64,000 bases of DNA, from positions 124,001 to 188,000 of the forward strand of contig NZ_JAHCST010000004.1 of NCBI RefSeq assembly GCF_018476525.1. Direction: 5' to 3'. Numbering within the stretch: position 1 is the stretch's first letter; each line of letters starts with the position of its first letter. This document shows positions 12,389 through 24,136 of this stretch, in pieces. The notes under the pieces were generated by a model. The model was not told where the DNA came from and did no database searches. It saw only the letters and a list, made by a program, of their open reading frames with translations. This DNA is from Acrocarpospora catenulata (lineage in GTDB: Bacteria > Actinomycetota > Actinomycetes > Streptosporangiales > Streptosporangiaceae). A program made the translations under genes and the position numbers.

Positions 12389-15300
12389 TTACGCTCCGGC
12401 CAGCTTGGCCGCCTCGTCCTCTGACATTTGCTCCAGTTCGGCGGTGAGGAGGTCCTCGATTGCGTGGGCCAGGTCGGTCACTGTACGGCGGGTGAACAGG
12501 GTTCGGATTGGTATGTCCAGGTCGATGGTGGCGCGGAGGCGGGCGGCTACCCGGACGGCGATCAGGGAGTGGCCGCCGACGGTGAAGAAGTCGTCTCTGG
12601 CGCCGATTTTGTCCAGGCCGAGGACCTCTGACCAGATTTCGGCGACCAGGCGTTCGGCGTCGGTGGAGGGCTCGACGTAGGCGGCGGCGCGGTCGGGGAC
12701 GGGGTCGGGGAGGGACTTGCGGTCGATCTTGCCGCTGATGGTCAGGGGGAGGGTGGGGAGTCTGGTCCAGAGGGCGGGCATCATGTACTGCGGGAGTGTG
12801 CGTTCCAGCTGCTCACGGACTTCGGTGAGGTCGGCGGGGCCCACGACGTACGCGATGAGGATCTCGCCGCGGGCCACCACGGCGGCCTGGGTCACGCCGG
12901 GGCAGGCCAGGATGGCGGCCTCGATTTCGCCGGGTTCGATGCGGAAGCCGCGGACCTTGAGCTGGTTGTCGAGGCGGCCGAGGAATTCGATCTGGCCGTC
13001 GGCGCGCCAGCGGGCGCGGTCGCCGGTGCGGTAGAGGCGACCTCCGCCGAAGGGGTCGGGCACGAATCGTTCGGCGGTGAGGCCGGGCCTGCGGTGGTAG
13101 CCGGTGGCCACGCCCGCGCCGCCGATCAGGAGTTCGCCGGGCACGCCGGTGGGGGCGATCTCACCGGCCGCGTCCAGCACGTACACCTGGGTGTTGGCGA
13201 TCGGCGCGCCGATCCGGGGGTCCCCGGGGTCGGCCGGGACCTCCCAGGTGGTGGACCAGATCGTGGTCTCGGTGGGGCCGTACACGTTGAGCAGTCGGCG
13301 CAGACGGGGGCGCAGGTCGCGGGCGAGTTCGTCCGGGAGGGCCTCGCCGCCGACCAAGCCGGTGATGGCGGGGTCGGCGAAACCGGCTTCGATGAGCACC
13401 CGCCAGCCGGAGGGGGTGGCCTGGATGTGGGTGATGCCGGTGTCCTTGATCAGGGCCAGTTGGGCGGCGCCGTCTACAGCGCTGTCCCGGTCGACGATCA
13501 CCGCACGGCCGCCGGTGATGAGCGGGAGGTAGAGCTCCAGGGCCGAGATGTCGAAGGAGACGGAGGACAGGACCATCCACACGTGCTCCGGCCCGACAGC
13601 CAGCAGGTCGTTGAAGCCGACCAGCAGGTTGACCAGGGCGGAATGCGGGATCACGACACCCTTGGGGCGGCCGGTGGAGCCGGAGGTGTAGAGCAGGTAG
13701 GCCGGATCGTCAGGGCCACCACGACCAGGCTGGGCCTCTCCAGGGCTCTTCGCATCCTCGTCCTGGGGATGAGCGGCGTGGCCGGCCGGTGGAGCCGCCA
13801 TCGCCTCGGCCAGATCCACCGTGGGGAGGTCGTCGGGCAGCCGGTCGCGCAGGGTGGGCTCGGTGAGGGCGAGCGCCGCCCCCGAGTCCGCCACCAGGTA
13901 CGCGATGCGCGCCTCCGGGTTCTCCGGGTCGATGGGCAGGTAGGCCGCCCCCGTCCTGAGCACGCCGAGCAGGGCGGGCAGCAGCGCCGCCGACCGGTTC
14001 AGGCAGAGCGCGACCACCGTTCCCGGCCCGGCTCCCTCGGCGGCCAGCCGTCCGGCTACCCGTCCCGCGGCGGTGTCCAACTCCCGGTAGGTGAGGGTGA
14101 CGCCACCGATCGCGGCGACGGCGTCAGGTGTGCGTGCCACCTGGGCCTGGAAGAGGCTGAGCAGGGTGGCCGGTTCGGGCAGCGGGCGGCCGGTGGCGTT
14201 CCACGCACGGACCAACTGGTCCCGCTCGGCCGCGTCGAGCAGGGGTAGCCGGGAGAGCTGAGCGGTGGGCTCGGCCGCGATGCCGTGCAGCAGCACCTGG
14301 AAACGCTCGAACAGCGAGGCGACGGTGGCCCGGTCGAACAGTTCGGTGCTGTAGCGGACGATGGCCGCCAGTTCGCCGCTGTCGTCGCCCGCCCACCACA
14401 GGTCGACGGTGAGGTCGTTGCGTACCCAGTGCCAGCCGTGTGGGAACGGCGTCGCCAGCAGCCCGCCGACGGAGTGCGTGCGCTCCAGTTCGGTGGCGTG
14501 CAGGGTGAGGGTGGTCTGGTAGAAGGGCGTGGTGCTGAGGTCGCGGCCGACGTCGAGTTCGTCGACCAGTCGCTCGAAGGGCACCGTACGGCGGGTCAGC
14601 GCGCCGAGCAGGGCGAGCTTGGTCCGCCGGAGGAACTCGGTGAAGGCCGGGTCGCCGGACAGGTCGCCGCGGAGCACGAGCATGCCGGAGAGGTTGGCCA
14701 CCAGGTTCTTGGCCTGGTCGGTGTCCCGGCCCGCGTCGGGCACGCCGACGCAGAGGTCATCCTGGCCGGTGTGGCGGGCCAGCAGGACCTGGTACGCGGC
14801 GAGCAGCACGGTGAAGAGCGTGCACCGTTCGCGTTTGGCCAGCTCGGCCAGTGCGGCGGCGAGCGGGGCGGCGATCCGGAAGGCGATCTCGTCACCGTAG
14901 CCCCGGCGTTCGGCCGGGCGAGGGTGGTCGGTCGGCAACTCCAGGGTGGGCGGGTCGGCCAGCCGGTCCACCCAGTAGGCCAGGTCCTTGGGGTTCACCT
15001 CGGGCGGTGGCGGGATCTCCAGGGGAAGCGGGGGCGGTGCCGTACCTTCGTAGCACGCGGTGAAGTCGGACATGAGCACGTCGAGGGACCAGCCGTCGGC
15101 GGCGATGTGGTGGAGGACGAAGGCGAGCACGTGCACGTCCGGGGCCAGGCTGAGCACGGTGACCCGGAAGGGGATCTCGGCGCCGAGGTCGAAGGGCCGG
15201 TTGGTGCGTTCGGCGACCAGCCGTACGGCTTCCGCCTCGTCAGCTTCCAGCCACTCCATCGGGACCGGGGCGGGTGGGTCCACCACGGCCACGGGGCCGC

Positions 15301-15481
15301 CGTCCACCTCGGGGAAACGGGTGCGCAGGGTGGCGTGCCGGGCCGAGACGGCGGTCACCGCGCGTGCCAGGGCGTCGCGGTCGAGGGGACCGGTGAGCCG
15401 CCGCACCCGGTGCAGGTTGAAGGAGGCGTCCGCGGGGTCGAAGCGCTGCAGGAACCAGACGCGCAGCTGAGCGGGGGTCAT
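12389..15481 (-). CDS. Nonribosomal peptide synthetase, one module C-A-T (predicted Gly)
   Basis: 1030 aa. The condensation domain at ~1-425 has intact HHIAADG. The adenylation domain at ~440-920 contains YTSGSTGRPKG, NVYGPTETTIW, YRTGDRARW and ISGKIDR. The carrier domain is at ~940-1010 with phosphopantetheine Ser in GGHSL (~972). There is no thioesterase or epimerase. Reading the pocket residues by manual alignment to PheA gives D-I-L-Q-L-G-V-I-W-K, one substitution from my recollection of the classic glycine code. ATG 15481 overlaps the glycosyltransferase stop by 4 nt, so this is the last gene of the operon. It probably acts before the upstream C-A-T-TE protein, which supplies chain release. 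Confidence 0.9.
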   Translation of the reverse strand: MTPAQLRVWFLQRFDPADASFNLHRVRRLTGPLDRDALARAVTAVSARHATLRTRFPEVDGGPVAVVDPPAPVPMEWLEADEAEAVRLVAERTNRPFDLGAEIPFRVTVLSLAPDVHVLAFVLHHIAADGWSLDVLMSDFTACYEGTAPPPLPLEIPPPPEVNPKDLAYWVDRLADPPTLELPTDHPRPAERRGYGDEIAFRIAAPLAAALAELAKRERCTLFTVLLAAYQVLLARHTGQDDLCVGVPDAGRDTDQAKNLVANLSGMLVLRGDLSGDPAFTEFLRRTKLALLGALTRRTVPFERLVDELDVGRDLSTTPFYQTTLTLHATELERTHSVGGLLATPFPHGWHWVRNDLTVDLWWAGDDSGELAAIVRYSTELFDRATVASLFERFQVLLHGIAAEPTAQLSRLPLLDAAERDQLVRAWNATGRPLPEPATLLSLFQAQVARTPDAVAAIGGVTLTYRELDTAAGRVAGRLAAEGAGPGTVVALCLNRSAALLPALLGVLRTGAAYLPIDPENPEARIAYLVADSGAALALTEPTLRDRLPDDLPTVDLAEAMAAPPAGHAAHPQDEDAKSPGEAQPGRGGPDDPAYLLYTSGSTGRPKGVVIPHSALVNLLVGFNDLLAVGPEHVWMVLSSVSFDISALELYLPLITGGRAVIVDRDSAVDGAAQLALIKDTGITHIQATPSGWRVLIEAGFADPAITGLVGGEALPDELARDLRPRLRRLLNVYGPTETTIWSTTWEVPADPGDPRIGAPIANTQVYVLDAAGEIAPTGVPGELLIGGAGVATGYHRRPGLTAERFVPDPFGGGRLYRTGDRARWRADGQIEFLGRLDNQLKVRGFRIEPGEIEAAILACPGVTQAAVVARGEILIAYVVGPADLTEVREQLERTLPQYMMPALWTRLPTLPLTISGKIDRKSLPDPVPDRAAAYVEPSTDAERLVAEIWSEVLGLDKIGARDDFFTVGGHSLIAVRVAARLRATIDLDIPIRTLFTRRTVTDLAHAIEDLLTAELEQMSEDEAAKLAGA

Positions 15482-16731: not shown

Positions 16732-17039
16732 TGGCGGTCCTGCCCGCCAAGCAGCGCCCGGATCTCGCCGCCCGGCAGGCGGTCCACCTCGGCGAGCAGG
16801 TCGGCCACGTCCTCCTCCTCGCGGCTCTCCTGGATCGCCCTGGCCGCCGCCGCGACCGTGAGATCCTCGGCGAAGAGCACCTCGATCGGCAGCGAGACGC
16901 CGAACTCGCTCTCCACCCGGGCCAGGAACTGCACCATCGCCAGCGACTGCCCGCCGAGTTCGAAGAAATCGTCGGACGGTGAGCTGACCTCGACGCCGAG
17001 GATCTCGCGCCAGAGCCGCATGACCTGCTGTTCGTTCAC
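16728..17039 (-). CDS. Free-standing peptidyl carrier protein
   Basis: 103 aa. A single PP-binding domain with phosphopantetheine attachment Ser at ~31 (DDFFELGGQSLAMVQFL) and an acidic C-terminal extension. GTG 17039 overlaps the stop of the NRPS-MFS gene by 4 nt, which fixes the start. No adenylation domain is fused, so it must be charged in trans by one of the two A domains or by an enzyme outside the operon. It may hold a starter unit or the substrate seen by the adjacent glycosyltransferase. No phosphopantetheinyl transferase is in the window. Confidence 0.88.
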   Translation of the reverse strand: MNEQQVMRLWREILGVEVSSPSDDFFELGGQSLAMVQFLARVESEFGVSLPIEVLFAEDLTVAAAARAIQESREEEDVADLLAEVDRLPGGEIRALLGGQDRQ

Positions 17040-20000
17040 GACTTGCCCTCCGTGGTGCGGCTTTGCAGAAGCTGGTATCCGAGCACGTCGTCTGGGGTGG
17101 CGTCGGGGACGGTGTGGTCGAACTGCCACAGGCCGCGCAGCCGGGTGGCCACCAGCACGCTGACCGCCATGACCAGGCCGAACAGCAGGTACATGAAGGC
17201 GATGCCGCGCCCTTCCCCGGTGCCGATCAGCGCGCCGACCGTGTCGGCCAGCGCGCCGCCCTCGGCCAGCAGCGGCTCGAAGAAGGCAGTGCCGTACGGG
17301 GCGACCAGTCCGAACCCGATGGGCAGGGTGGAGAAGGCGACCAACTGGTTGAGGGCGAAGACCCGGCCGTGGAACCGCTGCGGCACCTTGACCTGGATGA
17401 TCGTCGCGTAGATGCCGTTCAGCAGGGTCAGCGAGGCGAACATGCCGAACACGCCGACCGCGATCACCGCCAGGTTCTCCCTGGCTCCGACGACCAGCGC
17501 GAACAGCGCCAGCGACAGGGTGGCCAGCAACTGGCCGCGCAGCCGCAGCCGCCGGGGTCCTCCCCACAGGGTCATGGTCAGGCCGCTGAGGAAGACGCCG
17601 AGCCCGCCGAAGAAGGTGACCCTGCCCACGTCGGAGAGTTCGGCGAAGGAGAGCACGAGCGGGGAGACCAGCAGGAAGAGCGGGGACATGAACAGGTTGA
17701 CCACGGCGAAGAAGAGCAGCATGCGCCGGATGCCGAGATGGCCCCAGGTGTACCGGAAGCCCTGCACCATCTCGGTGAGCACGCTTTCCCGGCGCTGGTG
17801 CGGCATGGTCCGGGGGAACTTGATCACCAGGACGACGGTGATCGCCACCGTGTAGCTGACCACGTCGATGACGAGGATGCCGCCCAGCCCGATCACCGAC
17901 AGCAGCCCGGCCGCGGCGAGCGGCACCACCAGCTGGGACACGCCGGTGGCCATGCCGACCACGCCGTTGGCGTGGCCGAGGAAGCGTTTGGGCACCAGCT
18001 GCGGGATGGCCGAGGTGTAGGCCACCCGCTGGAAGGTGAGCGACATGGAGAGCACCACCAGCAGCGGGTAGATCTGCCAGATCTGGAGGTTGTCCGTCCA
18101 GACCAGCAGTCCCAGGATCAGCTGGGTGGACCCGGCGGCCGCGTCGCTGATGGCCAGCACCTTCCGCCGGTTGAACCGGTCGACCACGGCCCCGGCCAGC
18201 GGGGCCACCAGCAGGCCCGGCACCAGGCCGAGCACCGAGAAGAGCGCGAAGTTGGCCAGCGAGCCGGTGGTCAGGTAGATCCAGATCGGGATGGCGAACT
18301 CGGTCAGCGCCGAGCCGGTCATCGAGACCAGCTGCCCGGCCGCCAGCATCAGGAAGCGCCGCATGCTGGGCGGTGGCCCCACCTCGGGTACGGCTCCCGC
18401 CGCGCCGCCGGCCCGCCTGGACAGTCCCTGCAGCCACCAGGTCTCCTGGCCGGTCTGCCGCTCGATCGTGGCCGTGTCGTCCGCCGCGATGGCCGGATGC
18501 ACGGTGGTCACGATGGCGGCCAGCTCCTCCGCCCGATATTTCAGGAAATAGTGGGCGGCTTCATCGAGGACCACGCAGCCGGCCACCGGGGAGAGGCAGT
18601 GCCACTCCCGGTACCGCTCCTGGTAGTACTCCATGATCGGGTCCCGCTCCCCGGCCACCGCGATCACCGGCGCCCGCAACTGCTCGGCCCCCTCCTCGAA
18701 GAGCTTCGCGAAGTACCGCTCGGCCTCCCGGGTGCCGCGCCGCCGGTTGCCGACGATGAGCTCAAGCTCTTCCTGCTCGAACTCCGAGACGTCCAGACCC
18801 GCCGCGACCAGCCCGTTCACCCGGGCCTGGTCACCGCCGAGGTCCTCCAGCCACTCCCCGACCCTGGCGAAGGCCCCGCGCGGCCGGGCGAACGGGAAGA
18901 CTCCGCCCAGGTAGATGGCCTCGATCTCGCGCCCCTTGGCCTCCAGCCGCCGGGCGATCTCGGCGCAGAGCGTGGTGCCGACGCCGCAGTGGCCGTACAG
19001 GACCAGCGGGCCCTGCACGGTGGCGATGATCTCGGTGGCGCACTCCTCGGCCACCTCGAGCAGCGGCCTGGGCTGCTCGCCCAGCTCGTGGCCGGGTACG
19101 CCGATGGAGTAGAGCGCCCAGTCCTCGGGCATCGCGTCCGCGAGCGGCTTGTAGATGACCGCGCTGCCCCCGCCGTACGGCGCGCAGACCAGGGTGGCGG
19201 TGGTGGCCCGTGCGGGGGTGAGCCGGTGGAGCAGGCCGCCAGAGGAGTCGCCGCCGGAGTCGATCAACCGGGCCAGCTCGCGTACGGTCGGATACTTGAA
19301 CAGCTCCATCAGGGTGACCGTGTGCCCGGCCTTCCGCAGCCGGGCCACCACCTGCATGGCCAGCAGCGAGTGCCCGCCCAGGTCGAAGAAGTCGTCCAGC
19401 GCGCCGACCCGGTCCAGGCCCAGCACGGCGGCCCAGATCTCCGCGACCGTCTCCTCCACCGGCGTGGCCGGCGGGGTGAACTCGCCCTCCCGGGTGTCGC
19501 CGGGGTCGGGCAGCGCGGCCCGGTCCACCTTGCCGTGCGACTTCAGCGGCAGCCGGTCCAGCCAGACGTACCGGACGGGGACCATGTAGTCGGGTAACCG
19601 CTCCTTCAGCCAGGCGCGCAGGTCGGCGCCTGCCTCCTCCTCACCCACCAGGTAGGCCACCAGGCGCTGGCCGCGCAGCTCCACCACGGTGAGCGCGACG
19701 GCGGGGTGCTCGGCCAGCACGGTCTCCACCTCGCCGAGTTCGACCCGGTAGCCGCGGACCTTGACCTGGAGGTCGCGGCGGCCCAGGAACTGCAGCGCGC
19801 CGTCCGGGAGCCAGCGGCCCAGGTCGCCGGTGCGGTAGACGCGGGCGCCTGGCCTGCCGTACGGGTCAGGGAGGAACTTCTCGGCGGTGAGGCCGGGGCG
19901 GCCGAGGTAGCCGACGGCGAGGCGGTCGCCGCCCAGGTAGATCTCCCCTGGCACCCCGGCGGGGACCGGGCGCATGCGCTCGTCCAGGACGTAGACCCGG

Positions 20001-22369
20001 GCCCCGGGGAGCGGGCGGCCGATGGGCAGCGTGGCCTGGCCGCTCTGGCCGCGTGGCACGGCGAAGGTGGTGACGCCGACGGTGGCCTCGGTGGGGCCGT
20101 AGTGGTTGATCACCGTGCAGTGTTCGGCCAGCTCGCTGGCCCAGCCGACGGTGGACGCCTCGCCGCCCAGGATGAGCAGCCTGGCCGGGAGGAGTTCGGC
20201 GGGGTCGGCCTCGGCGAGCAGGGCGGCCAGGTGGGACGGAGTGATCTTGAGGTAGTCCGGCCGGGCCCGCCGGAAGTAGGCGAGCAGGTCGGGGGCGGCG
20301 GTGCGGGACGGGATCAGGTGCAGGCAGCCGCCGGTCATCAGCGACAGGTAGAAGACCGTGACGCCGAAGTCGAAGGCGAGCGACTGTGGCAGCGCGTACA
20401 CGCCGCCGGGCTCGACGGCGAAGCGTTCGCGCACCCCGGCCAGGTAGACCAGCACCTCACGGTGGCGGACGGCGACGCCCTTCGGCCGTCCGGTGGTGCC
20501 CGAGGTGTAGATCACGTACGCCAGGTCGTCGGCGGTGACCCCGCTGTCCACGGGGGTGTCCGGGCAGTCGGGGGCGTCCGGGGGGATCTGCGTGACGTCC
20601 ACCGGCAGGGACCCCACCGCGATCCGCACCCCCGCGTCCGCGACCATGTACGCCAGCCGCTCGGCCGGTTGCTCCGGATCCAGCGGCACGTACGCCGCCC
20701 CCGACTTGAGCACCCCGAGCAGCGCGACCGCCAGTTCGGCGGACTGCTCCAGCGCCACCGCGACCCGGTCGCCGGGATGTACGCCGAGCTCGCGGAGCCG
20801 GTGCGCGAGCCGGTTGGCGCGCCGCTCCAGGTCGGCGTAGCTCACCGTGTCGGCGTCGAAGACGACGGCGGGGGCATCCGGCCTGGCGGAGTCGACCAGG
20901 TCGTGCAGGAGCTCGGCGGGCAGCGGCCGGGGTGCGCTGGACTCGCCGAGGGTCAGTACATGGGCGGTCTCCTCCCGGGGCACCCAGTCCAGTTCGGAGA
21001 GCCGCCTATGGGGATTGGCCACGATGCTCTGGAGCAGGGTGCGCAGCGAGTCGGCCAGCCGGGCGACGCTCTCCGGCAGGAACAGGTCGGGGTTGTAGAT
21101 GAACGTCCCGTCCAGTTCCCCCTCGGCCTCCCACAGGTAGAGCGCCAGGTCGAACCGGCTCACCTCGATGTCCATGCCGAACGGCGAGACATCCAGGCCC
21201 AGCGACTCCGCACCCTGGGCCACGTAGTTCTGCAGCGCGAACATCACCTGGAAGACCGCCGAGCGGCTGACGTCCCGCTCCACCTTGAGCTCGTTGACCA
21301 GCTGGTCGAAGGGCGTCTCCTGGTGGGAGTAGGCGTCCAGGCAGTCGTCGCGTACCTGGATGAGGAACTCGGTGAAGGTCGGGTCGCCGTCCAGGTCGGC
21401 GCGCATGGCCAGGGTGTTGACGAACATGCCGGCCATGCCGTCCAGCTCGGGCAGGCCGCGCCCGCTCACCGGGCTGCCGACGGCGAAGTCCCGCTGCCCG
21501 GACCAGCGGCCCAGCAGCACCTGGAGGGCCGCCAGCAGCGCCATGTACGGCGTGGCCCCGTGGCTCGCGCTCAGCTCCGCGATCCCGGCGGTGATCCCCG
21601 CGTCCAGGTGCAGACCGTGGCCCCGCCCGGCGGTGGTCTGCTCGGGCGGCCGGGGGAAGTCGGCGGGCAACTCCAGCGGGGGCACGCCCTTGAGCCGCTC
21701 CGACCAGTACCGCAGGTCCCGCTGGTAGGCCGGGGTGCCCTCGCGCTCACGCTGCCAGATCGCGTGGTCGCCGTACTGCACGGGCAGCGGGCGCAGCGGG
21801 GACTCCCGGCCCTCCCGGAACGCGGCGTGCAGCTGGATCAGTTCACGGAGCAGGATCTCCCCGGACCAGCCGTCGGTGATCGCGTGATGCGCGGACATCA
21901 GCAGCACGTGGTCACCAGGGGCGAGCCGGATCAGCAGCACCCGGAGCAGCCCGCCGGCGGTCAGGTCGAAGGTACGGGCCAGCTGGGCCGAGACCAGCTG
22001 TCTCGCCTCCTCCTCGGAACCGGCCGTGACCAGCAGGAACTCGGTGGACGGCTGGTCGTCCACGACCACCTGGGGCAGCCCGTCCTCGGAGGTGACCAAG
22101 CGCATGCGCAGGCTCTCGTGGCGCCGGGTCACCTCGGCGACCGCCTGGCGGAAGGCGTCCTCGTCCAGGTCACCGCCGAGCCGGACGACGAACGGGATGG
22201 TGTACGCCGTGGTGCCTGGCCGGTACTGCTCCAGGAACCAGAGGCGCTCCTGGGCCCGCGAGAGCGGCGGGGTGGTGCCGGGTGGTCGTGGGGTGACGGT
22301 CGTGGCAGCGGTTCTGCGTTGCAGTCGCTGGGCGAGAAGAGCCTGTTTGGCCGGGGACAGACTGGTCAC
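17036..22369 (-). CDS. NRPS C-A-T-TE fused to a C-terminal MFS transporter (predicted Asp)
   Basis: 1777 aa in one frame. After a short helical N-terminus: condensation ~40-470 (HHAITDG intact); adenylation ~490-955 (YTSGTTGRPKG, NHYGPTEATVG, YRTGDLGRW, SHGKVDR); carrier ~970-1045 with Ser 1001 in GGHSL; alpha/beta thioesterase ~1070-1290; linker; full MFS permease ~1336-1760 with about twelve hydrophobic segments. Manual pocket reading gives D-F-T-K-I-G-H-V-G-K, close to aspartate codes. The TE nucleophile elbow reads GHCGVG, Cys 1128 instead of Ser; the Asp (GERD) and His (DEAAH) partners remain. GTG 22369 has GGAG at five bases. First gene of the operon. The MFS part presumably exports the product directly at the membrane. 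No stop or frameshift interrupts the fusion. Confidence 0.92.
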   Translation of the reverse strand: MTSLSPAKQALLAQRLQRRTAATTVTPRPPGTTPPLSRAQERLWFLEQYRPGTTAYTIPFVVRLGGDLDEDAFRQAVAEVTRRHESLRMRLVTSEDGLPQVVVDDQPSTEFLLVTAGSEEEARQLVSAQLARTFDLTAGGLLRVLLIRLAPGDHVLLMSAHHAITDGWSGEILLRELIQLHAAFREGRESPLRPLPVQYGDHAIWQREREGTPAYQRDLRYWSERLKGVPPLELPADFPRPPEQTTAGRGHGLHLDAGITAGIAELSASHGATPYMALLAALQVLLGRWSGQRDFAVGSPVSGRGLPELDGMAGMFVNTLAMRADLDGDPTFTEFLIQVRDDCLDAYSHQETPFDQLVNELKVERDVSRSAVFQVMFALQNYVAQGAESLGLDVSPFGMDIEVSRFDLALYLWEAEGELDGTFIYNPDLFLPESVARLADSLRTLLQSIVANPHRRLSELDWVPREETAHVLTLGESSAPRPLPAELLHDLVDSARPDAPAVVFDADTVSYADLERRANRLAHRLRELGVHPGDRVAVALEQSAELAVALLGVLKSGAAYVPLDPEQPAERLAYMVADAGVRIAVGSLPVDVTQIPPDAPDCPDTPVDSGVTADDLAYVIYTSGTTGRPKGVAVRHREVLVYLAGVRERFAVEPGGVYALPQSLAFDFGVTVFYLSLMTGGCLHLIPSRTAAPDLLAYFRRARPDYLKITPSHLAALLAEADPAELLPARLLILGGEASTVGWASELAEHCTVINHYGPTEATVGVTTFAVPRGQSGQATLPIGRPLPGARVYVLDERMRPVPAGVPGEIYLGGDRLAVGYLGRPGLTAEKFLPDPYGRPGARVYRTGDLGRWLPDGALQFLGRRDLQVKVRGYRVELGEVETVLAEHPAVALTVVELRGQRLVAYLVGEEEAGADLRAWLKERLPDYMVPVRYVWLDRLPLKSHGKVDRAALPDPGDTREGEFTPPATPVEETVAEIWAAVLGLDRVGALDDFFDLGGHSLLAMQVVARLRKAGHTVTLMELFKYPTVRELARLIDSGGDSSGGLLHRLTPARATTATLVCAPYGGGSAVIYKPLADAMPEDWALYSIGVPGHELGEQPRPLLEVAEECATEIIATVQGPLVLYGHCGVGTTLCAEIARRLEAKGREIEAIYLGGVFPFARPRGAFARVGEWLEDLGGDQARVNGLVAAGLDVSEFEQEELELIVGNRRRGTREAERYFAKLFEEGAEQLRAPVIAVAGERDPIMEYYQERYREWHCLSPVAGCVVLDEAAHYFLKYRAEELAAIVTTVHPAIAADDTATIERQTGQETWWLQGLSRRAGGAAGAVPEVGPPPSMRRFLMLAAGQLVSMTGSALTEFAIPIWIYLTTGSLANFALFSVLGLVPGLLVAPLAGAVVDRFNRRKVLAISDAAAGSTQLILGLLVWTDNLQIWQIYPLLVVLSMSLTFQRVAYTSAIPQLVPKRFLGHANGVVGMATGVSQLVVPLAAAGLLSVIGLGGILVIDVVSYTVAITVVLVIKFPRTMPHQRRESVLTEMVQGFRYTWGHLGIRRMLLFFAVVNLFMSPLFLLVSPLVLSFAELSDVGRVTFFGGLGVFLSGLTMTLWGGPRRLRLRGQLLATLSLALFALVVGARENLAVIAVGVFGMFASLTLLNGIYATIIQVKVPQRFHGRVFALNQLVAFSTLPIGFGLVAPYGTAFFEPLLAEGGALADTVGALIGTGEGRGIAFMYLLFGLVMAVSVLVATRLRGLWQFDHTVPDATPDDVLGYQLLQSRTTEGKS

Positions 22370-23110
22370 TTGCACTCCGAGTGGTCGGTCACAACGCGCT
22401 GCCGTCGACTCGGGATGAGCAGCACGATTGACGCGCTCCCCGTCCGTCGCGATGGATGGGAACGCTCCCACGCCGGTTGAAGGCTAGATTTCGCCGCAGA
22501 CGGCGGTCAAGCATTCACGCATATTTCATTACGATTCATGCTTTATCGGACGTGTCCATGAAATGGCCTGCACTTTCACCTTTGAATGGTGTGCGAGGGT
22601 GCTCGACGCTTGACACGGAACCGGGCGGCCGGGGTGCGCTCCCGGTCGCCCTCCCGCTCTGATTCAGGCTTTACAGCAGGTCAGAGGCAGCTGTTGACGG
22701 CACTCGTACCGAACGAGCCGACCATCGGGCGCCCGCGTCGTCGACGGTTCTTTCGATTCCCCTGGTGCCCGAGAGCGTGACGGTGATCGTGTTCCGGAAA
22801 CGCGCGTTCGGTGTCTTGAGCTCCTCGATACCCGGTCCGCGGGAATATCCACGCCTTGATTGAAGAACGAATAGGCGCACATTCCGATCGTCTCGTGGTT
22901 GCCTGTCGGGCCGGCTCGGGGATCTCACAGCGACTGGTCCGAGGCGGCACAGACCCGGGGTGAGCGGCAGGTGCTCATCGGCCGGCAGGCGCAGGTTGAT
23001 CTTCAGGGGGCTGTCGCCCGGATGATCCGGATTTTAACTATCACCCCGTCTCTCGTCCCGACTTAACGGGGAGTAATCGGACATGTCCTGTTTGTGAGGG
23101 GGAGTTGGGG
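22370..23110. other. 741-bp divergent intergenic region with possible gene remnant
   Basis: It separates the NRPS operon (-) from the polysaccharide deacetylase (+). The part 22480-22600 is AT-richer and carries the candidate NRPS promoter. Between about 22671 and 23028 a minus-strand frame is open for some 119 codons without a start codon near its 5' end. Parts of it read like protein (PLKINLRLPADEHLPL, and GIEELKTPNARFRNTITVTL), which suggests a decayed gene, but I cannot assign it. A GAGGGGGAG ribosome-binding site for the deacetylase is at 23095-23103. I see no convincing intact gene or RNA. Confidence 0.4.
22481..22510 (-). promoter_or_regulatory. Candidate promoter of the NRPS operon
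   Basis: On the minus strand TTGACC (22505-22510) is separated by 18 bp from TAGCCT (22481-22486), a plausible actinobacterial -35/-10 pair. It would give a ~105-nt leader before the GTG at 22369. This is the only gene-free space in front of the operon. Confidence 0.4.
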
Positions 23111-24136
23111 ATGAGAATCGCTCTACTGGTGAGCGGGGCGCTCGTGCTGACCGGCTGCGCGGCGCTGACTGGGTCGAAACATGATGGCAAGCAGGAGGCC
23201 AAGGCGGCGGCCAAACAGGCGGCCAAACCGGTGAACGCGGCGGCAGCCGCCGCGAAGGTGAAGGCCAACGAACTGGGGCAGGTCCCGGTGCTCATGTACC
23301 ACCGCATCGTCGAGAAGCCCACCACACAGGACGACCGCACACCGGCGGACTTCCGCGCCGAGCTGGAGCGCCTGGCCCGTGAGGACTATGTGCCGGTCAC
23401 CGCGGCCGAGTACGTGACAGGCAAGATCGACATCCCGGCGGGCAAACACCCGGTGGTGCTCACCTTCGACGACTCCTCGCCCTCCCAGCTCACCCTGGAC
23501 GGCGCCGGCACCCCGAAGGCCGACACGGCGGTGGCCATCCTCCGCGAGGTGGCCGCCAAGCACCCCGGCTTCCGGCCGGTCGCCACCTTCTACGTGACCC
23601 GTGACATGTTCGGCGAACCCCGCCCCAACATCCAGGCGCAGCTGGTCTCCTGGCTCCGGCAGAACGGCTTCGACCTCGGCAACCACACCAAGGACCACCA
23701 CAGCCTCGGGGGCAAGTCCCAGGAGGCGGTGGCCTCGGACGTGGTGGACGGGCACGAGCTGATCACCAAGCTGAACGGCGGAACCCCGGTCACCATCGCC
23801 CTGCCGTACGGGATCCAGCCCCGGCAGAAGGAATGGGCGCTGAAGGGGAAGAAGGGGTCGGTCTCCTACGACTACGGCGGGGAGTTCCTGGCCGGCTACA
23901 CCCCCGCGCCGTCGCCGTTCAGCAAGGAGTTCGACCCGACCTCGATCCCGCGGATCCGGTCCGGGGACAAGAAGGGGGACTGCTCGCAGTTCTGCTCGTC
24001 GGCCTGGCTGGACCGGCTGAAGGAGATGCCGGGCGAGCGCTACACCTCGGACGGCAACCCCAAGACCGTGGCGATGCCGAAGTTCCAGCAGACCATGCTG
24101 GCGGCGAAGTTCGCTTCCCGGGCACTCGGTTACTGA
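23111..24136 (+). CDS. Polysaccharide deacetylase (NodB homology) lipoprotein
   Basis: 341 aa from ATG 23111 with GAGGGGGAG seven bases upstream. The N-terminus is a lipoprotein signal with lipobox LTGC, followed by an Ala/Lys-rich linker to ~55. The catalytic domain has motif 1 TFDDS (catalytic Asp and metal Asp) and motif 2 GNHTKDHHSL supplying the metal-binding His pair. It likely de-N-acetylates a cell-envelope or extracellular polysaccharide (peptidoglycan, chitin-like or exopolysaccharide) from the outer face of the membrane. Substrate unknown. Its stop abuts, without a gap, the stop of the convergent YiaA-like gene. Confidence 0.88.
   Translation: MRIALLVSGALVLTGCAALTGSKHDGKQEAKAAAKQAAKPVNAAAAAAKVKANELGQVPVLMYHRIVEKPTTQDDRTPADFRAELERLAREDYVPVTAAEYVTGKIDIPAGKHPVVLTFDDSSPSQLTLDGAGTPKADTAVAILREVAAKHPGFRPVATFYVTRDMFGEPRPNIQAQLVSWLRQNGFDLGNHTKDHHSLGGKSQEAVASDVVDGHELITKLNGGTPVTIALPYGIQPRQKEWALKGKKGSVSYDYGGEFLAGYTPAPSPFSKEFDPTSIPRIRSGDKKGDCSQFCSSAWLDRLKEMPGERYTSDGNPKTVAMPKFQQTMLAAKFASRALGY

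Follow-up and report, generated by a model that had tools for sequence, protein, structure and literature searches.

A non-ribosomal peptide synthetase terminal module fused to a transporter of the major facilitator superfamily in Acrocarpospora catenulata

The 64,000-nucleotide stretch of the Acrocarpospora catenulata genome analyzed here (positions 124,001 to 188,000 of contig NZ_JAHCST010000004.1, assembly GCF_018476525.1; hereafter, the window) contains a single continuous open reading frame (ORF) that encodes a complete non-ribosomal peptide synthetase (NRPS) module together with a transporter of the major facilitator superfamily (MFS). The original prediction, made from the sequence alone, had placed such a fused polypeptide at 17036-22369; these coordinates are correct, the coding strand is minus, and the plus-strand translation of the interval is not a gene. 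The ORF starts with a GTG at 22369, preceded by GGAG 5 bases upstream, ends with a TGA stop, and encodes 1777 amino acids (aa). Further in-frame GTG codons are present at 22375 and 22471, and the precise start is ambiguous because our gene caller, a home-made, non-standard tool that uses GC content at third codon positions, chose a start two codons before the GTG at 22369; all residue numbers below are counted from the latter.

Pfam searches, which the original prediction had proposed as a check, identified the Condensation, AMP-binding, PP-binding, Thioesterase and MFS_1 domains, in that order and each above the curated cut-off. The condensation (C) domain (PF00668; aa 34-470, 20960..22270) contains the catalytic motif HHAITDG. 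The adenylation (A) domain (aa 495-947, 19529..20887) is covered by PF00501 (495-822) and, in its C-terminal part, by PF13193 (880-947), and carries the specificity code DFTKIGHVGK. The carrier (T) domain (PF00550; aa 974-1036, 19262..19450) includes the phosphopantetheine-accepting Ser in a GGHSL motif. The thioesterase (TE; aa 1059-1290, 18500..19195) was delineated by the Pfam match, which covers aa 1059-1156 only (profile positions 2-101 of 226), by alignment to the thioesterases of ObiF1 and SulM, and by the predicted fold. A linker (aa 1291-1335, 18365..18499) with a conserved TWWLxGxS motif connects the TE to the MFS permease (aa 1336-1777, 17039..18364), in which the MFS_1 match spans aa 1342-1679. 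The arrangement C, A, T and TE, in that order and with the respective motifs, is the one expected of an NRPS terminal elongation module, which we predict this part of the protein to be.

The junction between the TE and MFS parts is open, without a stop. The same is the case for five more intact C-A-T-TE-MFS genes in the A. catenulata genome (10.3 Mb in 181 contigs), and the six fusions are 41-71% identical to each other in pairwise comparisons. Scanning genome contigs with a TE-MFS profile gave 438 matching stretches; relatives are encoded in 368 of these, and the best 80 of the 368 were kept. All 80 show the C-A-T-TE-MFS order in a single frame, a count to be read with the caveat that both the TE-MFS query and the ranking by score favour fused proteins. 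Five of these 80 (L063, L073, L082, L083 and L084) yield doubled matches to the C or A domain profiles, which we take as split matches of a single domain. Together with the five own-genome copies and the window protein, the 80 relatives make up the set of 86 proteins used below; the HHxxxDG motif of the C domain and the Ser of the T-domain GGxSL motif are present in all 86. Thus, chance, a frameshift or misassembly can be excluded as the origin of the fusion because the five own-genome copies and all 80 relatives are open across the junction; on the same grounds, a sequencing error in the window was ruled out. Neither of the two findings that were to count against the original prediction, namely, a stop or sequencing error separating TE from MFS or the lack of any fused homologue, was made.

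The head of the MFS part contains an ATG codon (18362-18364 in the window) that is conserved in 76 of the 86 proteins. A Shine-Dalgarno-like motif precedes none of these 76 codons; the corresponding figures are 74 of 1720 for random codons and 43 of 85 for the starts of called genes. The claim that no start signal lies between TE and MFS accordingly holds in the sense that a potential start codon is there but lacks the upstream motif, and internal initiation at the MFS was rejected on this ground. The ATG itself is perhaps a relic of the start of a formerly separate MFS gene.

Several samples address how strictly the TE and the MFS are kept together. When the TE alone was used as the query, which removes the bias of the TE-MFS profile, the best hit in each of 30 genomes had an MFS in the same ORF (30/30). 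The fusion was also found in all three plasmid loci that were read and in all six loci picked for a low score or an odd ORF length, among them a C-T-TE-MFS case and a locus truncated at the end of its contig. In the A. catenulata genome, the six MFS domains of the fused kind (607-800 bits) are all fused, and the next MFS scores 75 bits. Five more distantly related TE domains from four genomes (106-132 bits) are unfused. A TE tree was built from 46 of 53 rows, with four long-branched canonical TEs of the own genome and three duplicate rows left out; the 35 fused TEs included (26 chosen from the 86 and nine others) form one clade (support 96/94, recovered in 95% of 200 bootstraps), with the five unfused relatives outside.

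By alignment, the catalytic triad of the TE is Cys1128-Asp1243-His1273. Of the 86 proteins, 83 have Cys as the nucleophile and three have Ser; the catalytic Asp and His are invariant, and the Gly that we equate with position I (Gly1155) is conserved in 85. The three TEs with a Ser nucleophile (L063, L071 and L083) are exactly those with a basic-type terminal A code; because they form one clade, this combination represents a single event rather than three. In the TE of ObiF1, the obafluorin beta-lactone synthetase, the corresponding residues are Cys1146, Asp1254, His1284 and Gly1173 (PMC6668435), and in the TE of the sulfazecin monobactam synthetase SulM, Cys2818, Asp2926 and His2956 (PMC11298585). 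In both enzymes, the Asp occupies 'position II' and is followed by the His 30 residues later (PMC6668435, PMC11298585). The spacing between Asp1243 and His1273, assigned by alignment, is likewise 30, and the Gly at Cys+27 is common to ObiF1 and the window TE. In sequence comparisons with solved proteins, ObiF1 ranked first (E 4.9e-35), ahead of BorB, a type II TE (2.3e-20), and SulM (1.4e-17); in the fold search (model with a predicted local distance difference test score, pLDDT, of 80.8), ObiF1 and SulM were the nearest, with type II TEs close behind. In nucleophile, position II Asp and position I Gly, the predicted TE fits the Cys thioesterases of the ObiF/SulM type.

In the tree, ObiF1 is placed as sister to the fused clade with only 89/74 support and SulM groups, weakly, with the five unfused TEs (83/54), whereas a branch with 100/100 support separates the fused and unfused TEs, ObiF1 and SulM from the type II-like TEs, of which four were included (BorB, RifR and two from the own genome). 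The canonical type I TEs have very long branches and are too divergent to be placed. SulM and ObiF1 are themselves grouped with type II proof-reading TEs in the published comparison (PMC11298585), and the layout of the triad is therefore no proof, by itself, that a ring is closed.

The MFS part is complete, as predicted originally: hydropathy analysis detects 12 hydrophobic segments, between aa 1347 and 1741. The loops follow the positive-inside rule, with 29 Lys or Arg residues on the cytoplasmic side vs 3 outside, and hydropathy, the charge rule and the structure model, rather than a dedicated transmembrane (TM) predictor, all place the N- and C-termini of the MFS inside. Motif A (D-R-x-x-R; DRxxRR in the window) and an Arg in TM4 (Arg1448) are present in all 86 proteins, and an acidic residue in TM1 (Glu1357) in 82; these elements have functional roles in MFS antiporters. 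The permease ends in a conserved cytosolic tail, D..VPDA.PDD..G. Conservation at the sites matching Y[QP]ER.R.W (TE) and [VA]KVPQRFH (MFS) is partly a matter of selection because the pattern scan for relatives used these motifs. A structure model of the T-TE-MFS portion, built on 65 of 81 eligible rows, reached a pLDDT of 84.5 and a predicted template modelling score (pTM) of 0.80. Foldseek searches with the MFS part of this model retrieved MdfA, SPNS2 and, lower, NorA; a viral structure library yielded no informative match. The predicted features of the MFS (12 TM segments, both termini inside, motif A, the TM1 acid and the TM4 Arg) are those of drug:proton antiporters. The catalytic His and the MFS head are 36 to 123 residues apart, depending on which of the 86 proteins is considered. 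The linker nevertheless has the TWWLxGxS motif (18419-18442, aa 1310-1317), which the model shows as a short strand and the Trp of which (Trp1311) is conserved in 85 of the 86.

The fused gene is the first in a compact operon of four genes with overlaps of 4 nucleotides. By the gene calls, the approximately 730 bases before its start are non-coding, the nearest upstream gene being encoded on the opposite strand with its start at 23111. Downstream, all on the minus strand, are a free-standing carrier protein of 103 aa (PF00550; 16728..17039), the start of which overlaps the stop of the fusion; a glycosyltransferase (GT) similar to EryCIII and macrolide GTs (PF06722, PF03033; 15478..16731), which overlaps the carrier gene; and, as the last gene, a C-A-T module with the Gly-like code DILQLGVIWK (Pfam and gene call; 12389..15481). 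The closest layouts are those of seven Herbidospora loci, in which the fusion is followed by the carrier, the GT, the C-A-T(Gly) module and a glycosidase of glycoside hydrolase family 3 (GH3) (e.g., L014:16817-19309); the GH3 gene is absent from the window at that position. The EryCIII-like GT family, the only GT family counted, is present in 9 of the 86 loci. Eight loci combine it with an Asp-like fusion; seven of these encode the GH3 glycosidase, and the eighth is the window. It is possible that, in loci with both enzymes, a glycosylated product is exported and unmasked later. More generally, 84 of the 86 loci contain additional genes that encode C, A or T domains, with neighbouring modules carrying mostly Gly-like and basic codes, and the neighbourhoods also hold a stand-alone, acyl-ligase-like A protein. 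In 28 of the 86 loci, genes for the E1-alpha, E1-beta and E2 components of a 2-oxoacid dehydrogenase lie near the fusion (e.g., L011:13447-15999, L028:3142-6295 and L013:14381-17396), and these might furnish the small carrier proteins with an acyl starter of an unusual kind.

Under an assumed table for the ten positions of the A-domain code and the meaning of their residues, the terminal code of the window protein is Asp-like, as are those of 62 of the 86 proteins (DFTK[IVL]GHVGK); 12 codes are Ser-like (DVWH..L.DK), eight are Cys-like (DLYN[LM]SLIWK), three are basic (DTEDIGT.IK), and one is DLPKVAEVGK. The codes thus point to Gly, a basic residue and Asp, Ser or Cys, next to the acyl-ligase-like stand-alone A protein, and no described compound known to us matches this combination.

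The genera from which the 80 relatives come are presumably of the Streptosporangiaceae, judging from their names, apart from Streptomyces and Catellatospora records. Five genomes of the window's genus contain 5 to 8 TE-MFS matches each, some of these partial. In the window's family, the TE-only profile (E <= 1e-30) detects matches in 60 of 150 genomes; the TE-MFS profile (E <= 1e-60) does so in 14 of 60 relatives. With the latter profile and threshold, matches were found across the class in at least 24 of 394 genomes, with a full-length match in 21, and in at least 57 of 297 genomes of another family of the same class (f20), where 47 are full-length, one (G638) is in two frames and nine comprise the MFS part only. 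In the phylum, the TE-only profile (E <= 1e-25) gave at least 5 of 396 genomes, the own genome included. The counts for the phylum, the class and f20 are lower bounds because only 2 to 7 candidates per genome were scored. Plasmid matches come from five records, three of Streptomyces clavuligerus and two of Embleya; in one of these (L102:10675-17277), the fused gene is located on the megaplasmid pSCL4 of S. clavuligerus, a culturable strain, and adjoins further NRPS genes. The plasmid matches lack annotation. Variant heads occur as well, namely, an A-T-TE-MFS ORF truncated by the end of its contig (L136:8316-12518) and a C-T-TE-MFS ORF without an A domain (L135:7827-11717).

Multidrug MFS pumps of the MdfA/NorA type share the 12-TM fold, motif A, the TM1 acid and the TM4 Arg. 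Such pumps are free-standing and have broad substrate ranges; the fused MFS, in contrast, is only approximately 13-15% identical to them, is joined to an NRPS module and has the conserved cytosolic tail. ObiF1 (PDB 6n8e), the best TE match by both sequence and fold at 25-28% identity, shares the C-A-T-TE order, the Cys and the Asp and Gly of positions II and I; however, it continues into an MbtH-like domain rather than an MFS and uses a beta-hydroxy aromatic amino acid (PMC6668435). The SulM TE (PDB 8w2c/8w2d) is the second-best TE fold and has the Cys nucleophile and position II Asp, but has Gln-Cys-Asn instead of His-Cys-Gly, ranks behind BorB in sequence and, as described in the accessible text, lacks an MFS (PMC11298585). 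The CesCD-CesAB cereulide complex, which is the nearest precedent, also ties a transporter physically to an NRPS at the membrane, although through protein contacts and with a separate ATP-binding cassette transporter, not a covalently fused MFS (PMC7527721). The poly-amino-acid synthetases Pls and PosA are NRPS-like enzymes with a C-terminal TM part; in these, six TM helices form three pairs, the large segments between which have a proposed catalytic role, and the accessible part of the source describes no MFS (PMC10522769). The window fusion differs from the Pls type in having a TE and a 12-segment MFS in place of the six TM helices.

Candidates for an already described case were rejected: the azaserine synthetase AzsO is, in the accessible part of its report, a Cy-A-CP protein without a TE or MFS and with a separate transporter gene (PMC10445470), and for biffamycin and biphenomycin, the MFS genes are separate in the parts of the descriptions available. 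None of the titles listed in searches of one open-access library, which covered neither subscription papers nor preprints, describes the TE-MFS fusion. The automatic NCBI name 'non-ribosomal peptide synthetase/MFS transporter' presumably denotes the same architecture, and no characterized product or publication for it came up in these searches. NRPS terminal modules and MFS exporters are both well known; within the scope of the searches, their standing fusion via an ObiF/SulM-like TE is undescribed.

We consider it probable that the fused protein is the membrane-tethered terminal module of a short NRPS assembly line that releases its product and exports it through its own MFS. Under this scenario, the C domain would take over the peptide chain from an in-trans carrier, the A domain would append the final residue, predicted to be Asp, and the T domain would pass the chain to the Cys-type TE, which would free the product at the cytoplasmic face, next to the fused MFS; the latter would then move it out, presumably at the expense of the proton gradient. 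The original prediction had held that the fusion tethers release to export. Its membrane-tethering part stands, in that the predicted anatomy would anchor the module in the membrane and leave its active sites on the cytosolic side. The unusual Cys TE, the presence of six copies in this genome and the single clade of the fused TEs had not been noticed in the original prediction. Export of the module's own peptide by the MFS is plausible because the pair is kept together, the fold is exporter-like and both termini are predicted to be inside, and, given the retention of the TE-MFS pair, it is the simplest reading. Transport would probably be proton-driven, and the fusion might speed or protect the hand-over.

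Several observations weigh against this scenario. The threshold used for hydropathy was low, and eight stretches in the soluble part pass it too, so the TM count leans also on the charge alternation and the model. The nearest antiporter family, NCBIfam TIGR00900 (2A0121 proton antiporter), scores 177.9 bits, below the cut-off of 319.6. The substrate predictions depend on the assumed code table. MFS distances correlate best with those of the C domain (r 0.78), less with those of the TE (0.57) and least with those of the A core (0.34) (43 non-redundant rows, in an exploratory comparison uncorrected for shared ancestry), so no tight co-adaptation of TE and MFS to the last residue is visible; the pattern would fit an exporter that tracks the scaffold of the peptide and not this residue. 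A half-length MFS fragment with a clade-like score is located behind an NRPS gene without a TE (L148:9607-17875, genome G007) and perhaps represents a decayed fusion. Finally, separate MFS genes of a related kind occur without a fused TE. Of nine loci with such genes, six, L148 among them, have other neighbours; in the remaining three, the MFS gene overlaps a C-A-T-reductase terminal-module gene (L141:9882-15211, L142:9605-15822 and L145:9485-15741), an arrangement that speaks for the scenario in that it ties the exporter type to chain release. These three loci correspond to the fusion in split form, with a different type of chain release.

A more specific, and doubtful, extension of this scenario is that the Cys TEs, in the manner of ObiF and SulM, release reactive, strained or activated rings that pass directly to the exporter, such that the electrophile is never free in the cytoplasm. 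Hypothetically, a terminal Ser could give a beta-lactone, Cys a beta-thiolactone, and Asp a cyclic anhydride or a hydroxylated lactone. If so, the fusion would represent a response to the hazard that the product poses. Against such ring formation, 62 of the 86 predicted terminal residues are Asp-like and unable to make a plain four-membered ring, and the triad layout is shared with hydrolytic type II TEs, which follow closely in the fold search.

Alternatively, the MFS could be mainly a membrane anchor or scaffold for the assembly line, with little or no export, in the manner of CesCD. An anchoring role is possible because CesCD is required for cereulide assembly itself, beyond transport (PMC7527721); the poly-lysine and poly-ornithine synthetases end in TM domains that are not transporters (PMC10522769), and other NRPS genes adjoin the fusion in many loci. 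However, motif A, the TM4 Arg and the TM1 acid are conserved, and a mere anchor need not retain these or 12 TM segments, so we consider this alternative unlikely. It appears quite unlikely that the MFS confers self-resistance or carries another compound of the cluster, such as a glycosylated form or a precursor, instead of the TE-released peptide: the GT in the window operon and the GH3 gene in seven of the eight loci with a GT and an Asp-like fusion suggest glycosylated forms, but this GT family (other GT families were not counted) is found in only 9 of the 86 loci and the fusion in all of them. The notion that the fusion is an artefact, be it a missed stop, a frameshift, misassembly or separate translation of the MFS from an internal start, might draw on the conserved ATG and on a stop or frame change in two matches of another family (G711 and G638), but is extremely improbable and, for the window DNA, refuted by the frame that is open in all six own-genome copies and 80 of 80 relatives and by the 76 ATGs without a Shine-Dalgarno-like motif.

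If the NRPS module indeed releases its product to its own exporter, natural-product biosynthesis and export would be united in one molecule, and channelling from assembly-line release to the pump would be testable by cutting or mutating a single linker. The TE-MFS pair also provides a tag for genome mining, with 368 relatives in species genomes and a Cys-type TE, the solved relatives of which close beta-lactone and beta-lactam rings, in 83 of the 86 read.

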